Of a DNA stretch of 51,546 bases, positions 8,804 through 36,818 are shown piece after piece. This stretch comes from Oscillospiraceae bacterium (lineage in GTDB: Bacteria; Bacillota; Clostridia; Oscillospirales; Oscillospiraceae). Position 1 is the first letter of the stretch. Each line of letters starts with the position of its first letter. The position numbers and the translations under genes are program-made. The notes under the pieces were generated by a model, which saw only the letters and a list, made by a program, of their open reading frames with translations, was not told the DNA's origin and did not search any database. The stretch spans positions 1 to 51,546 of the forward strand of contig CADBKF010000030.1 in the NCBI GenBank assembly GCA_902795195.1, given 5' to 3'.

Positions 8804-8903
8804 AGTTTTGTCCTCCTTATTATTTGGGTGTTCATGGCACAGGAAATGCCGCTGCGCGCTCGCGCCGGCGTGCCAGAGGACCACTCCATTCACAGACCGC
8901 TAT
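8804..8903 (-). promoter_or_regulatory. rplS leader, possibly structured
   Basis: About 95 nt separate the predicted transcript start from the L19 Shine-Dalgarno. It contains a GGCAC/GTGCC pairing around a GC-rich core. Firmicutes are known to have an L19 leader RNA bound by the protein; whether this is that element cannot be decided by eye. Confidence 0.3.
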
Positions 8904-21438: not shown

Positions 21439-24400
21439 TCAGCTGTTGCTTGATGCGCCCAGCGCCCGGTAGAGGAAGGTCACGATCTGGGCTCTCGTGC
21501 AGGTGTCGGCGGGGGCAAAGGTCGTGGCGGTCTTGCCGTTTGTGACGCCGTTTTCCACCGCCCACAGGACCGCGTTATAGTAATACGCGCCGCTGCTCAG
21601 ATCGGTGAAGGGCGTCTCGGTCGTGGTGATCTCCGGCTCGCCGGATGCGCGATACAGGAAGGTCACGACCTGGCCTCTCGTGCAGGACGCGTTCGGGCTG
21701 AAGCTCGTCGCGCTCGTGCCCTTGGTGATGCCGCTGCCGACCGCCCATACCACCGCGTCATAGTAATAGCTGCCGGATGCCACGTCGGTGAAGGGCATGT
21801 CGGTCGAGGTATTGTCGGGGCTTCCGAAGGCACGCCACAGGAAGGTCACGACCTGCGCTCTGGTGCAGGGATCGCCGGGGCTGAACTCGGTCTTACTGGT
21901 GCCGTTTGTGATGCCCTCCTTGACCGCCCACATGACCGCGTCATAGTAATAGCTGCCCTTGTCCACATCGACAAAGGGATTTTCAAACGGGTCGGGGTCG
22001 TCCGGGTTGTCGGGGTTATCGGGATTATCGGGGTTATCGGGATTATCGGGGTTATCGGGGTTGTCCGGGTCCTCGATGAGCTTGACCGTCACGGTCACGG
22101 CCACGTCGCCGGCGGTGATCTTGGTCACGCGGTAGCCGTTTTTGACCCCGGTGTCCTCGGGGCCCTTGAGGTTCTTGTAGCTGCCGGTCGCACTGACCTC
22201 GTCCACCTCGTAGCCCTCGTCGGGCACGATGACAAAGTTCACCTGGCCGCTGCCGCTGGTGTCCGCCAGGCCCTGGGTGTCGCGGGCCAGCACGGTGCCG
22301 CTCTGGCCTGCCGCGATCACGGCGTCCGCCTCGCCGGTCATGCTCTGGGTGTTGTAGACCCGGAGCTCTGCGTGCTCCGGCGCGGTGAGGGTGACCTCAA
22401 AGCCGGTCTCCGGCTCGTCGGGATCGTCCGGGTCCTCGCTGCCGAGCTCCTTGGTCTGCACCGTGACGGTGGTCTCGGCGGTGATCTTGGTCACGCGGTA
22501 GGTATAATGCGTGCCGTCGTCGGAGACCAGCTTGATGTTCTTGTAGGTCCCCTCGGTGGCGCTCACGATGCCCATCTCATAGCCGTCTGCCACGGTCACG
22601 ACGAAATTCACCTGGCCGTCGCCGGTGCTGTCGGGTTCGCCGGTGGCGCTTGACCGGGACACGTCCGCATCGCTGCTGTCTGCATCAACGGTCAGGATCG
22701 CGTCGGCGGTCACATCCTGCGTGGCATAGACCGAGAGCGTGCTGCCCGCGTCGGTCACAAAGGTGACCGGGAAGCCCTCGTCCGGCTCCACGATCGGCTC
22801 GTCCGGGTCTTCGGGGTCCTCTGCCGGCGCGGCCTTCAGCTTGGGAATGGTCTGCGTCTCCTGTGCGCCGCAGAGCGTGCAGGTAAAGGTCAGGATGCCG
22901 GTGGACTCGGTCGTGGGTTCCGTCGTCACGACGCCGGAGTTCCAGCTGTGTGCAAAGCTGCCGCACTTGCCGTCATTCGAGCAGCTGAGGCTGCCGGTTG
23001 CCGCCGTGCAGGTCCAGGACGTGGACATATCCGGGCTGGAATAGAACACGAACTGTGCGTTTTTCGGCGCGACGGTCTGATAGACCACCGTGCTGCCGTT
23101 CTTGATCGTCACGATCCGGCCGAAAGTGACAGAGTTGGTGTAGTTCTTGTAGGTCTGGCTGTTTTTGGGGCTGGGATAACCCATGCCGCGGCTGCCGGCG
23201 GCGAACACGGTCGCGCCCTTGACGGTCAGCGTGCCGTCGCAGTCGAGCGGCTCGTTGTCCGCGTTGGACTGGCCCCAGACCTCAATCATGCCGCCGGTCA
23301 GATTCAGGTTGCCGTTGGAGTCCAGGCCGTCGCCGTTGCAGTTGACGTAGACGATGCCGCCGGAGATGTTGATGGAGTAGTCGCCGGCGGTCTGTCCGCC
23401 GCCTCCGCCCCAGCCGCTGCCGGGGCCGCCGGGATTCCAGGGGTTGAAGTGGTCGTCGCTGCTCGTACCGCCGGCGGCGTTGATGCCGTCGTCGCTGGCC
23501 GCCACGTAATAACGGCCGCCGTAGATGAACAGGTTGCCGGCCTCCAGGCCCTCATAGCTGGTCGCCACCTTGATATCCGGGTCGCGGGTCTGGCCGGTGG
23601 CGGAGCCCAGGTGCAGCTCGCTGTCGGCGTGGACGCCGTCGTCGCCGGTGGAGATTTCAAAGCTGCCGCCGGTGATGCAGATATACCCGTCGGAGTGGAC
23701 GGCGTCGTCGCCGGTGGAGATTTCAAAGCTGCCGCCGGTGATCGTGATGGTATTCGTGGCGTTTTCCACGGTGTCGTCGCTGCTCGAGGCCTTGAGGCCT
23801 TTGCAGCTCATGGTGTCGGAGTTGAAGCCCGAGGCGTTGTAGCCGCCGAATGTGGTGATCGAGAAGCTGCCGTCGGAGATCACGAGGTTGCCGTTGGACT
23901 GAATGCCGTCCCGCTGGGCGTTGATCGTAAACTGGCCGCCGTTGATCGTGATCAGGTTTGCCGCCTGGATGCCGTCAGACCCGGCGTTGATTGTAAAATA
24001 GCCGCCGTTGATCGTGATTTCTCCCTTGGACTCGGTGTCGCCCTCGTCGGGCTCGGACTTGATGCCCTCGTTGCCCGCGGTGATGTCCAGCGTGCCGTTG
24101 TTGACGATCACCTCGCCGTCGGATGCCAGGCCATTGTTGGCAGCCTTGATGTAGATCCAGCCGGTGGTCGCATCCACCGTGATCACAGAGGCCGCGCCGC
24201 CCTTGATGCCGTTCTTGCAGGCGCTGCCGTCGGCGGTCAGGATGCCGTCGCCCTCGATCTTAAGCGCCGCGCCGGACTTGACCTTGATCGCCGCGCCCTC
24301 AAAGGCGTCGGCCACGGCGGTGTCTGTGGAGGTCTCGTTGGCCGGGTCCTCCTTGTCCGTCAGCGTGACGGTGCCGGAGATGAAGAGCGTGGTTTCGGTG

Positions 24401-24804: not shown

Positions 24805-24839
24805 AGGGATCAGGGATCAGGGATCAGGGGTCAGGATTC
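24805..24839. repeat. heptamer array A-left (AGGGATC x5)
   Basis: Five contiguous 7-bp units (three AGGGATC, then AGGGGTC and AGGATTC). The whole 35 bp is the exact reverse complement of 25156-25190. Confidence 0.95.
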
Positions 24840-25134
24840 TGTGATTATGGAATTCATAATTGAGGATTCGGCGGCAGGGATGCTGCAACAGGCTCTACTT
24901 GAAGACGCTGCATACATGCAGCGCAGGTTCGAGTTCAGACTGCACAATCTTCATGTCATTCTGAGCGCAGCGAAGCATCTAAAAGCTCACTCGTTGAACC
25001 TTTTTCAGATTCTTCGCTGCGCTCAGAATGACACAAAACAGCGTGTGTCTCTTCAACACAAAACGGTGTTTGCCTCTCCAATTAAGGCTCATCACCCGCT
25101 GCAGCAAAACAGCTCAATGCGCTGTCAAATCCTT
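24840..25134. other. gene-free core of a nested palindromic element
   Basis: No gene is credible here: the only open frame is made of repeat sequence. The segment contains a small palindrome at 24908-24923 and a perfect 22-bp inverted repeat (24954-24975 with 25012-25033) of the GTCATTCTGAGCGCAGCGAA type. It is enclosed by heptamer arrays on both sides. Confidence 0.85.
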
Positions 25135-25197
25135 GATTCTTGAATCCTAGTCCCTGAATCCTGACCCCTGATCCCTGATCCCTGATCCCTGATCCCT
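25135..25197. repeat. heptamer array A-right (GATCCCT x9)
   Basis: Nine contiguous 7-bp units related to GATCCCT, most exact at the right end. Opposite in orientation to the array at 24805-24839, it lies 8 bp downstream of the HAD gene end. Confidence 0.95.
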
Positions 25198-33930: not shown

Positions 33931-34383
33931 TCAGAACGGCTCTTCCTCGTCGTCCTCGTCGAACTCGGGCTCCAGGGTCTCTCCGCAGTTCGGGCAGGGG
34001 AAGGAATCCTTGAGGATGGTCTGCTCGTCGACGGCGATCACCTCGCCGCAGGCGGGACAGGTGACCTCGTACATCTCGTCGTCGAACGCGAAATCGTCAT
34101 CGTCACCCAGGTCGTAGTCCTCGTCGTCGTACTCTTCGAAATCGTCGTCATCGTCCTCGTCCTCGTCGAGCAGGAACTCGTCGATGGCGTCGAGGCTCTC
34201 TTCGATTTCATCGAGCTCGTCGGACACCGCGATGGCGTTGTCCTCGAGATCATCCACGGAAACTGCCATGTCCTGCAGAAGATCGACGATTTTTGCAAGC
34301 AAGCGGTTTTCGTCCTTCTCCGTGTCCAGCTTCATGCCGTCCATCAGTCCCTTGAGATATGCAGCCTTTTCAGATAGTGTCAT
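33931..34383 (-). CDS. CD1247-type acidic protein with zinc ribbon
   Basis: A 150-residue protein. The N-terminal helix (MTLSEKAAYLKGLMDGMKLD) is the CD1247 N-domain signature. A run of Asp and Glu fills about 70-100, and a zinc ribbon with C109-x2-C112 and C130-x2-C133 ends the protein before an acidic tail. The ATG at 34381-34383 follows AAAGGAG by eight bases. Gene order pepP-efp-CD1247 is common in Clostridia; the role is not known. Confidence 0.88.
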   Translation of the reverse strand: MTLSEKAAYLKGLMDGMKLDTEKDENRLLAKIVDLLQDMAVSVDDLEDNAIAVSDELDEIEESLDAIDEFLLDEDEDDDDDFEEYDDEDYDLGDDDDFAFDDEMYEVTCPACGEVIAVDEQTILKDSFPCPNCGETLEPEFDEDDEEEPF

Positions 34384-34417
34384 GTCAGTCTCCTTTCTCA
34401 TTTGCGGAAATGAATAC

Positions 34418-34443
34418 AGATTCTTCGCTTTGCTCAGAATGAC
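34418..34443. repeat. dispersed GTCATTCTGAGC-type repeat (minus orientation)
   Basis: A copy of the repeat described at 20936, read on the minus strand, lying between efp and the CD1247-like gene and touching heptamer array C. Confidence 0.85.
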
Positions 34444-34458
34444 AGGTACGCACCCGTC

Positions 34459-34500
34459 TCCTGTTGCCTCTTGCCTATTGCCTCTTGCCTATGGCCTGAT
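34459..34500. repeat. heptamer array C (GCCTCTT/GCCTATT x6)
   Basis: Six contiguous 7-bp units, alternating GCCTCTT and GCCTATT with decay at both ends. It ends 2 bp before the efp stop. Confidence 0.92.
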
Positions 34501-34501
34501 C

Positions 34502-35071
34502 TCAGCCCTTCGCGCGGCCCATGTATTCGCCGGTGCGGGTGTCGATCTGGATGACGTCGCCCTCGTTGATGAACAGGGGGATCTTGACCTCAGCGCCGGT
34601 TTCCAGGGTGGCGGGCTTGAGGGTGTTGGTGGCGGTGTTGCCGGCCAGGCCGGGCTCGGTGTGGGTGACCTCGAGCTCGACAAAGTTCGGGCACTCAACG
34701 CCAAAGACGTTGCCCTTGTAGCTCAGCAGGGTGCACTCCTCGTTCTCCTTGACGAACTTGAAGGCGTCGGGCAGAACGTCCTTGCCCAGGGGGACCATGT
34801 CGTAGGTCTCATTGTCCATGAAGTAGTACAGATCGCCGTCGGCATAGCTGTAGGCCATCTTCTTGCGCTCGACGAACGCTTCCTCGAACTTGGCGGTGGG
34901 GTTGAACGAGGTTTCGGTCACGCCGCCGGTGATGATGTTTCTCATCTTGGTGCGCACGAAGGCAGCGCCCTTGCCGGGCTTGACGTGCTGGAACTCGACG
35001 ACCTGATAGATTTTGCCGTCCATCTCGAAGGTTTTACCGTTTCTGAAATCACTCGCGGTAATGGTTGCCAT
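34502..35071 (-). CDS. efp: elongation factor P
   Basis: A 189-residue translation factor that rescues ribosomes stalled at polyproline. The tip loop [14 protein letters not shown] puts the modifiable lysine at 34. The KOW/OB domains follow with [17 protein letters not shown] and the late [19 protein letters not shown]. The ATG at 35069-35071 follows TGGAGG; the preceding five in-frame codons lack conservation. It has its own promoter and would normally lie directly after pepP. Confidence 0.97.
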
Positions 35072-35133
35072 ATATGTTTCCTCCAAATCAGTAGAATATA
35101 CAGTTTTTGCCGGCTCGGCTTTTTTACTGATAC

Positions 35134-35162
35134 AGTATACTACATGCTTCGCGATTTTGCAA
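35134..35162 (-). promoter_or_regulatory. efp promoter
   Basis: TTGCAA and TATACT with 17-bp spacing on the minus strand. The heptamer array D-left begins 10 bp upstream of the -35. Confidence 0.75.
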
Positions 35163-35171
35163 GTATTTCTT

Positions 35172-35220
35172 TTCAGTATTCCGTTTTCAGTGTTCAGTAT
35201 TCAGTTTTCAGTTTTCAGTA
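35172..35220. repeat. heptamer array D-left (TTCAGTA-type x7)
   Basis: Seven contiguous 7-bp units related to TTCAGTA/TTCAGTT. It is inverted relative to the array at 35656-35746, and the two flank the four-helix-bundle gene. Confidence 0.95.
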
Positions 35221-35248
35221 CATCTATTCTTCAGAATTCATGTTTTTG

Positions 35249-35611
35249 TCAATTGTTCTGCTCAATCATGATTGCAATTACAGAATTCAACATTTTCCCG
35301 ATTTCTTTACATAAAGCAATTGCTTTTCCAGCGGTTTCTCTTGAGAAATAGGTCTGTGATATACATATCGAAATCTGCGTCTCCAGCTCGTATAAAGACC
35401 CACGGGAGATATACAGAAAGTGAATGTATTCACTTGTTGTATTCCGCCCATTTCCTTCTGCAATATTGGATGGAATAGAAACAACAGCTCTTCGCATCTG
35501 TGCACAAAGGGCATATTGTTCTTCCTTGGGCAATAGACGTATCAATTGATATGTCTCATCCACAAGCCGCATGCTCTTCTGCCAGACAACCAATTCTCTG
35601 TAATGTTTCAT
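35249..35611 (-). CDS. four-helix-bundle protein (23S rRNA intervening-sequence / S23 family)
   Basis: A 120-residue helical protein. The family pattern is clear: KHYRELVVWQKSMRLVDETYQL, SIPSNIAEGNGR (45-56), and FLYISRGSLYELETQI (65-80). Such proteins were first seen in insertions within 23S rRNA genes and resemble the Avd accessory proteins of diversity-generating retroelements; their molecular role is poorly known. The gene is AT-rich compared with both neighbours, which suggests acquisition. Start ATG at 35609-35611 is favoured; an in-frame ATG three codons upstream is possible. Confidence 0.88.
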   Translation of the reverse strand: MKHYRELVVWQKSMRLVDETYQLIRLLPKEEQYALCAQMRRAVVSIPSNIAEGNGRNTTSEYIHFLYISRGSLYELETQISICISQTYFSRETAGKAIALCKEIGKMLNSVIAIMIEQNN

Positions 35612-35655
35612 CCCCGACATCTCTCCACCGCACACTCAGAATACGAAACGCCAGA

Positions 35656-35746
35656 ACTAAACACTGACTACTGAACACTGACTACTGAATACTGACTACT
35701 GAATACTGACTACTGAATACTGACTACTGAATACTGAATACTGAAT
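35656..35746. repeat. heptamer array D-right (ACTGAAT/ACTGACT x13)
   Basis: Thirteen contiguous 7-bp units, mostly alternating ACTGACT and ACTGAAT. It ends 7 bp before the pepP stop and lies upstream of the four-helix-bundle gene. Confidence 0.96.
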
Positions 35747-35753
35747 CCTAAAC

Positions 35754-36818
35754 TCAGACAATGATCAGCTCTTTCGGACTGTGGGCCAGAATTTCCACGC
35801 CGTCGTCCTTGATGATGAGGCAGTCCTCGATGCGAACGCCGAATTTGCCGGGGAGGTAGATGCCGGGCTCGGCGGAGCTGACGCTGCCGGCGGGCATGGG
35901 CTTGTCGTTGGAGGGGTTGCAGTAGGGCGCTTCGTGGATCTCCAGGCCCAGGCAGTGGCCGTAGCCGTGGCCGAAGCAGTCGCCGTAGCCGGCGTCGGCA
36001 ATGATCTTTCTCGCGGTGCCGTCGATCGTCTGGCCGGTGACGCCGGCCTTCGTGGCCGCGATGCCGGCCAGCTGGGCCTTCAGAACCGTCTCATAGACGG
36101 TCTTCATTTCGTCCGTTGCATAGCCCAGGGCGACGGTGCGGGTCATGTCGGAGCAGTAGTCGCGGTAGATGACGCCGAAGTCCATGGTGATGAAATCGCC
36201 CTTCTGCAGCCGCCGTTCGCCGGGAACGCCGTGCGGCATGGAGCTGTTGGGGCCGGAGACCACGATGGGCTTGAAGCTCAGATCGTCCGCGCCGTTCTTA
36301 TACAGGCAGTAGATGAGCTCGGCAGCCAGCTCCTTCTCGGTCATGCCCTCGCGGATACGGCCGAGGACCTCGGTGAAGGCCCGGTCGGTGATGGCCTGCG
36401 CCTGGCGCATGCGCTCGAGTTCGTATTCCTCCTTGACCGCGCGGAAGGCGTTCAGCTCCTTCTGGCAGGGCACCAGAGCGGCGTTCAGGTTCTTCTCATA
36501 GTCCCGGAACTCGGCTACGGTCAGATAGTCCTCCTCAAAGCCGAGGCACTTGACGCCGAAATCCGCAATCGCCTCGTTGAGCTGCTTCATGTAGCCGTTG
36601 TCCTTGGACACCATGCGCACCTCGAAGCCCTTGAGGTTGTTCTGCGCGGACTCGATGTAGCGGCTGTCGGTGAAGTAGCGGCAGCCGTTCTTCGTCACGA
36701 TGGCAGCGCCCTCGTCGATGTTGAACTCGGCGCAGTATTTTCTCGACACCGCGCTCGTCAGCAGCAGGCCGTCATAGTGTTCGCCCAGAAGGGACAGATA
36801 TTTTTCCAGATTTGTCAT
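35754..36818 (-). CDS. pepP: Xaa-Pro aminopeptidase-like M24 peptidase
   Basis: A 354-residue cytosolic metallopeptidase. The creatinase-like N-domain runs to about 125. The pita-bread domain follows: PHGVPGERRLQKGDFITMDFGVIYRDYCSDMTRT holds the two metal aspartates, GHGYGHCLGLEIHEAP the His, and SSAEPGIYLPGKFGVRIEDCL the two glutamates. It cleaves N-terminal residues before proline. AAGGAG precedes the ATG, and it follows uppP by 11 bp. In relatives efp usually comes next; here a heptamer-flanked insert intervenes. Confidence 0.94.
   Translation of the reverse strand: MTNLEKYLSLLGEHYDGLLLTSAVSRKYCAEFNIDEGAAIVTKNGCRYFTDSRYIESAQNNLKGFEVRMVSKDNGYMKQLNEAIADFGVKCLGFEEDYLTVAEFRDYEKNLNAALVPCQKELNAFRAVKEEYELERMRQAQAITDRAFTEVLGRIREGMTEKELAAELIYCLYKNGADDLSFKPIVVSGPNSSMPHGVPGERRLQKGDFITMDFGVIYRDYCSDMTRTVALGYATDEMKTVYETVLKAQLAGIAATKAGVTGQTIDGTARKIIADAGYGDCFGHGYGHCLGLEIHEAPYCNPSNDKPMPAGSVSSAEPGIYLPGKFGVRIEDCLIIKDDGVEILAHSPKELIIV

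Follow-up and report, generated by a model that had tools for sequence, protein, structure and literature searches.

What is the AT-rich segment that lies between the genes pepP and efp in a 51,546-nucleotide stretch of an Oscillospiraceae genome (assembly GCA_902795195.1, contig CADBKF010000030.1, positions 1–51,546; called the window here), and what do the heptamer arrays at its two sides do? The segment carries one gene of the S23 family, enclosed by arrays of tandem heptamers in opposite orientation. The label "four helix bundle protein" says nothing of what the gene does, and the heptamer repeats of bacteria are unexplained in the literature examined. The observation is real and general; the anatomy of the segment and its recurrence are well supported, and its mobility is supported indirectly. 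We give slightly better than an even chance to the reading that the segment is a mobile element with foldback-type composite ends and S23 as its sole gene, akin to the S23-encoding intervening sequences (IVS) of 23S rRNA, in which one arm is copied from the other and S23 assists the element.

Anatomy of the segment between pepP and efp

All parts of the segment are encoded on the minus strand and are described in gene sense. The S23 gene (35249..35635, minus strand) codes for 128 amino acids from a GTG codon; in-frame ATG codons at 35620 and 35611 are possible true starts. The 5′ array (about 35656..35750, minus strand) comprises about 13 direct heptamers of the CAGTATT/CAGTAGT type and starts no more than about 10 bp from the pepP stop codon. 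The 3′ array (35172..35220, minus strand) has about seven units, ACTGAAA/ACTGAAT, and is the reverse complement of the 5′ array, so that the gene-sense units of both are of the CAGTATT/CAGTTTT type; the last letters of the units vary in both arrays. The ungapped match between the two arms scored 33.6 over 49 bp.

Tandem Repeats Finder reported the left array from 35162, 35170 or 35172 to 35220 (scores 69, 72 and 84 as periods 14, 7 and 21, respectively) and the right array at 35663–35746 (score 126 as period 7 and 154 as period 14). Their simple period-7 scores were 23 and 44, and no array scoring 14 or more appeared in 20 first-order Markov shuffles of the window. The GC content of the S23 gene is 0.413, against 0.618 for pepP, 0.586 for efp and 0.606 for the window; at third codon positions it is 0.42 versus 0.88 (pepP) and 0.86 (efp). 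Together with the match to PF05635, these data bear out the sequence-only reading, which had described inverted heptamer arrays around an AT-rich S23 gene and had proposed GC content and codon usage as checks. An Rfam scan of 34300–36000 gave just two matches, both far under the gathering scores.

Recurrence of the layout around S23 genes

The genome of the window (G000, 93% complete) has eight PF05635 genes. Inspected by eye, five of them (L001–L005, the window gene among them) share the layout, each with a heptamer of its own (GGGATCA, GGCAATA, TTAGGGG, GGGGTCA and CAGTATT), and a sixth (L007) has AGATAAT arrays; no clear array pair was found at L006 and L008. At L006, L050, L051 and L061, heptamer-like words (ATGATGT, ATGAAGC) were seen by eye to alternate with small hairpins beside S23, a pattern distinct from plain arrays.

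The survey was extended to 80 S23 loci from named genomes, the best 80 of at least 592 pattern hits and thus not a random sample, which according to the record titles span about ten phyla. Pooled with the loci from the genus, they make 108 loci, or 106 once the repeats L048 and L054 (identical to L074 and L076) are removed. These two were left out of the sense/antisense, G-U, ungapped-match and GGTAT-hairpin counts and kept in the two-sided heptamer agreement, the heptamer–protein comparison and the raw stop-codon distances. A period-7 array was present upstream of 34 of 80 S23 loci and downstream of 25 of 78, as compared to 28 of 525 flanks of other open reading frames (ORFs) at least 700 bp away (p = 3e-17 and 9e-11; odds about 13-fold and 8-fold, respectively). 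The arrays expected at other S23 genes were therefore found well above background. No arrays of periods 4–6 or 9–12 were present at S23 flanks, and period-8 arrays occurred six times upstream and five times downstream; at L073, L110 and L144, inverted octamer pairs, matching by eye, flank S23. GxxExxY (PF13366), considered as a possible second cargo, was matched in one of 23 genomes.

The two arms match within an element and differ between elements

Arms were compared as ungapped inverted matches, counted at a score of at least 18. Such matches were found at 61 of the 106 distinct S23 loci, as opposed to 6 of 400 shuffled pairs; in direct orientation the number was 14 of 106. A gapped version, which covered 78 of the 80 named-genome loci, exceeded the 99% null in 42 inverted and 10 direct cases. 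Inverted matches of the same score were also present at 15 of 22 S23 loci from IMG/VR, several of them near-identical, and the inverted arms are exact copies over 30–31 bp in L056 and L105. Where arrays were scored on both sides (46 of 108 loci), the heptamers agreed at six or more of seven letters in 39 of the 46 (38 of 44 once the two repeated loci are dropped); between different loci such agreement was 4.6%. Comparison between copies thus gives heptamers that match within an element and differ between elements. The dinucleotide AG occurs within the sense-strand unit in 63 of 76 cases and within the antisense unit in 14 of 76.

At the rnj site, three species carry units of three types, GGGGCTA, GCCAGAT and GTTCTTA; in each species the unit is visible by eye in both flanks. 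The S23 proteins at this site are 55–61% identical, and pairs keep three to four of seven heptamer letters. The variety may have arisen from a single ancient insertion whose arms were later rewritten, or from three separate insertions into the same position. Among eight same-site pairs with a protein identity of at least 76% (two self-repeats excluded), six to seven of the seven letters are kept. Over all loci, the relatedness of heptamer and S23 protein shows a weak tie (r = 0.15; 1 of 500 permutations gave a value as high); a tight tie of the heptamer to the S23 protein family was rejected on this value. Insertion of S23 into an existing array was also rejected, because it would leave the arrays in direct orientation: direct agreement at six or more letters was found in 5 of 46 loci and inverted agreement in 39 of 46.

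Occupied and empty sites in relatives

The pepP–efp junction could be read in 14 of 22 relatives from the genus and was unreadable in the other 8. S23 was present in none of the 14, and seven are empty, with a short gap of 79–130 bp, in keeping with the earlier view that the segment is inserted. Six relatives (L010, L011, L012, L014, L020 and L022) have another long ORF in this place; four of the six were tested and all are acyltransferases (PF01757). A zinc-ribbon ORF occupies the junction in one relative. The junction is a variable site in the genus, because a different long ORF fills the gap in six relatives, and the S23 segment is, as judged from these genome comparisons, a lineage-specific insertion between pepP and efp. 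Neither the same segment at the same site in all relatives, nor S23 genes elsewhere that never have heptamers at their flanks, was seen.

At the rnj site, 15 genomes were readable: S23 is present in three, 11 are empty and one has a 446-bp gap without S23. Downstream of the stop codon of the gene that precedes the S23 element L004, other heptamer arrays were noted by eye in five relatives (L285, L289, L290, L291 and L293); no S23 was present there within the up to 120 bp read.

Outside the 3′ array of the window element, promoter-like boxes for efp (TTGCAA, 17 bp, TATACT; 35134..35162, minus strand, by eye) follow directly, and a stretch resembling them is visible by eye at the empty sites of relatives. 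The upstream neighbour pepP (35754..36818, minus strand) and the downstream neighbour efp (34502..35086, minus strand) have the identities first assigned to them, as shown by their Pfam matches.

Position relative to neighbouring genes and the RNA-stem alternative

In a strictly chosen set of 5′ arrays, 30 of 37 start within 20 nucleotides of an upstream co-directional stop codon, a count that stands without a matched null. The upstream stop is TAG at 15 of these 37 arrays, compared to 29 of 178 long ORFs of G000 (p = 0.003). The strict set drops repeats and stops located seven or more nucleotides inside the array; the raw figures (41 of 49 within 20 nucleotides; TAG at 23 of 49) are biased toward small distances and toward TAG, since the nearest stop was taken from all frames open for 100 codons. 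S23 lies in sense in 65 and in antisense in 5 of the 70 loci whose neighbours, called mechanically as ORFs of at least 100 codons, share a strand. Phase variation by inversion between the arms is disfavoured because of this strong sense bias. Four divergent S23 genes, L006, L007 and L008 of G000 and L052 of G008, adjoin tRNA genes (ARAGORN; 4 of 25 loci scanned), which recalls the IVS residing in rRNA.

These positions are what would be expected if the segment were an IVS-like RNA element, in which the arrays pair as the end stem of a piece of transcript excised by RNase III. Selection on this RNA stem would then keep the arms alike, and insertions would be tolerated at harmless transcribed spots, such as after a stop codon, after a tRNA or in an rRNA loop. 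The sense bias, the proximity to stop codons and the tRNA-adjacent genes agree with such a model, as does the predicted RNA fold of the window segment, in which the arms pair (z = −7.4, 20 shuffles). Together with the fold, a precedent from Coxiella (PMC4990558) makes this a serious rival: the 23S IVS there has tandem heptamers GACAGAT before the S23 ORF and a 28-bp terminal inverted stem, and RNase III cuts it at the first of the repeats. Two observations count on the other side. In three genomes the rnj host promoter, recognized by eye in the 11 empty sites, sits between the 5′ array and S23, and a transcript from this promoter can therefore not hold both arms. Moreover, arm mismatches that would be tolerated as G-U pairs in sense RNA are not in excess (66 G-U versus 91 A-C in 72 loci; p = 0.055 in the opposite direction). 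The rnj site and the wobble-pair test weaken a model based on an RNA stem only, and we regard it as possible but unlikely.

Arrays and mini-elements without S23

Heptamer arrays are not confined to S23 genes. In 451 kb of G000, 39 period-7 arrays were found, while each other period from 3 to 12 gave at most five. Five of the 39 are at S23 genes and 34 are not next to one. Some of the latter are inverted pairs of one heptamer; an example is the GGGATCA pair in the window (24805–24835 and 25153–25197, no strand assigned), which encloses 317 bp and has the same heptamer as the S23 element L001. With one such mini-element as query, 92 matching places were obtained in G000, many of them partial (arrays alone or the inner repeat). 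Of six copies that were read, four are compact and two have extra inner DNA; in five of the six, a GGTAT hairpin and a second CCC-GAA/GGA-GGG hairpin, then ATACC, lie between the arms. A GGTAT hairpin of this kind also occurs 5′ of S23 in L042 and L054/L076, and the pattern was not found in the other S23 loci. That elements lacking S23 also have ends of this kind fits the original proposal of a mobile or hitch-hiking element. Array density was 49 in 656 kb for four genomes with S23 and 6 in 535 kb for five genomes lacking it (for G011, G012 and part of G002, the sequence sampled consists of short contigs). S23 and heptamer arrays co-occur, with one exception (G011).

The abundance of arrays away from S23 could mean that they arise by ordinary slippage in relaxed intergenic DNA and become mirrored when the template happens to be switched, with S23 as a passenger of such places. 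The 34 arrays without S23 are in line with this, as are the arms that fail to match in one mini-element copy (L314) and in some two-sided S23 loci. The enrichment of arrays on both sides of S23, with periods 4–6 and 9–12 lacking, argues against it; so do the core shared between the arms of mini-elements at several sites and the near-absence of arrays from four of the five S23-free relatives (not G011). We consider this explanation improbable.

The hairpins in the core of the mini-elements raise another possibility, namely that the elements are REP-like (repetitive extragenic palindrome-like) passengers on whose hairpins host Y1 transposases of the RAYT type act in trans, with S23 as an accessory or bystander. 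Y1_Tnp matches numbered 5, 3, 2 and 0 in the S23-containing genomes G000, G002, G012 and G017, and 1, 0, 0, 1 and 0 in the S23-free genomes G011, G010, G015, G016 and G018; in this sample they are commoner where S23 is present, apart from G017. However, G017 (82% complete) has arrays and S23 with zero Y1 matches, none of nine Y1 loci has an array pair (a single array lies 60 bp from one, L258), and the S23 element of the window is without core hairpins by eye. The chance that Y1 transposases account for the elements appears slim.

Properties of the S23 protein

The S23 protein of the window matched PF05635 with 130 bits and TIGR02436 with 122 bits, both above the cut-offs, and the related bAvd model with 39.8 bits, which narrowly misses the cut-off of 40 for that model. 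An AlphaFold model predicts a four-helix bundle (mean predicted local distance difference test score 93.1). The best structure matches were XCC0516 (2gsc, root-mean-square deviation 0.9) and BT_0352 (2rld), followed by the Avd proteins of diversity-generating retroelements 8ub7 and 4dwl; in sequence, too, the protein is nearer to XCC0516 and BT_0352 than to Avd or bAvd. In four close pairs of S23 orthologues, the ratio of nonsynonymous to synonymous changes (dN/dS) is 0.07–0.11, from which it follows that the protein is selected for; four further pairs yielded 0.13, 0.19 and two saturated values. The S23 gene is AT-richer than its own locus in 77 of 80 loci. No S23 match was present in 50,697 phage records, and 26 plasmid records, cyanobacterial mostly, contain the gene. 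IMG/VR contigs filed as viral (L147–L149, L155–L165 and L167; the filing is given as recorded) carry S23 genes with inverted matching flanks.

The fold match to Avd of the retroelement ribonucleoproteins 8ub7 and 4dwl, and the near-threshold bAvd score, would suit a scheme in which S23 acts like Avd, a reverse transcriptase is provided in trans and template jumping by this enzyme makes the heptamers. Yet the array-rich G000 has no match to RVT_1, and neither have G004, G014 and G020, with 4–5 S23 matches each. Given the lack of an RVT_1 match in G000, which is 93% complete, the elements can, at least at present, do without a reverse transcriptase of the same genome, and we judge the scheme very improbable.

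A proposed foldback-type element with co-changing arms

On this reading, the element would have inserted into the few nucleotides that separate the pepP stop codon from the efp promoter, in the orientation of the genes on either side. We propose that it folds back as DNA and that strand switching or repair of the hairpin then makes one arm the template for copying or correcting the other; a change in the heptamer would in this way be rewritten on both sides. S23, a relative of Avd, may bind the folded nucleic acid of the element and thereby help both its own element and the copies without S23 to spread, with the strand transfer carried out by an enzyme supplied in trans. Such copying at the DNA level would account for arms that match yet change better than an RNA stem does.

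Several points weigh against this reading. No transposase or reverse transcriptase was seen in the element of the window, and inspection of S23 loci by eye showed no transposase between their arrays. No target duplication was obvious by eye in six mini-element copies, for which a near-identical pair of empty and filled sites is lacking, and copy L314 has different heptamers on its two sides. Unmatched arms occur in 6 of 44 distinct two-sided loci, some of them resulting from the scoring of a nested array. At the same threshold, 20 of 108 loci have an array upstream only, 10 downstream only and 32 have none. The S23-free genome G011 holds five of the six arrays counted in genomes of its kind, in 83 kb. 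The case for DNA-level copying is drawn from patterns in the arrays. Finally, the rnj promoter enclosed between array and gene bears on the proposal that the arrays are the ends of the element: that part stands in so far as they form matched inverted pairs, but they are not always the exact ends of a contiguous insert, and most of the arrays counted in G000 are not at S23 at all.

More broadly, S23 genes may define a bacteria-wide class of foldback-type elements with element-specific heptamer (or octamer) arms that are rewritten together, the 23S IVS being the rRNA-resident members and many S23-less pairs being miniature inverted-repeat transposable elements (MITEs) moved by S23-dependent machinery; we put this forward tentatively and lean somewhat against it. 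The data suggest a widespread, little-described type of bacterial mobile element. The link between S23 and the heptamers provides a shared context for both and ties them to the 23S rRNA IVS and to Avd, and it offers a testable case of a foldback element in bacteria with ends that change in sequence but remain matched to each other.

Other repeats in the window and at S23 loci

A solo heptamer array of the GGCAATA/GGCAAGA type (34460..34497, minus strand) starts about 5 bp past the efp stop codon; GGCAATA units also border the S23 gene L002 of the same genome. REP-like CATTCTGAGCGCAGCGAAGAATC repeats are nested with heptamer arrays at 24950–25033 and 34418–34443 of the window and at 8820–8900 of L178 (by eye). 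In L168 (5500–5730), tandem GTAG-GGGACGGCGTCC hairpins, of the REP type by eye, are located directly 3′ of a GGCAATA array. A 183-bp tandem repeat (2.7 copies; 21473–21957 of the window) is unrelated to the S23 element.

Comparison with known systems

REPIN/RAYT and MITE families are small, hairpin-bearing multi-copy elements. The resemblance to REPIN/RAYT lies in REP-like repeats and RAYT-like genes within the same genome; the difference is that the ends described here are variable tandem heptamers. Avd and bAvd of diversity-generating retroelements share the four-helix-bundle fold with S23, and here the genome is without a reverse transcriptase match.

Intergenic heptamer arrays have been described before: GGGAATC in Xanthomonas, with inverted pairs in 70 and 75 cases (PMC4692102), TAACTGA in Beggiatoaceae (PMC4679880) and heptanucleotide sites in Geobacter that are mostly paired and strand switched (PMC2700814). 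The passages of these papers available to us draw no tie to S23 genes; the available text of PMC4679880 contains neither "S23" nor "four helix", and that of PMC4692102 neither "four helix" nor "xcc0516". Searches of open papers, which covered titles and the openings of abstracts, gave none that connects inverted heptamer arrays with S23 genes located outside rRNA, and an earlier description elsewhere is possible.

Foldback (FB) transposons such as the eukaryotic Tm1, in the portion of the report available (PMC3169594), have composite ends, inverted and built from short direct repeats in varying number, and comprise gene-bearing as well as MITE-like members. The S23 elements likewise have inverted ends of variable direct repeats, and occupied and empty sites in relatives. 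They differ in being bacterial, in having units of 7 (or 8) bp that vary from element to element, and in that no transposase was found and no target duplication seen.

The closest relatives are the S23-encoding 23S rRNA IVS, for which the accessible part of the Coxiella study (PMC4990558) describes an S23 gene, adjacent tandem heptamers of strain-variable number and complementary termini, all features shared with the present elements. The elements described here are, in contrast, intergenic between protein genes (pepP and efp for the window copy) and not inside 23S rRNA. They have arrays on both sides, usually with an element-specific heptamer, and S23-less elements alongside. Whereas the Coxiella ORF is reported to be decaying, S23 is under purifying selection here in the pairs tested.
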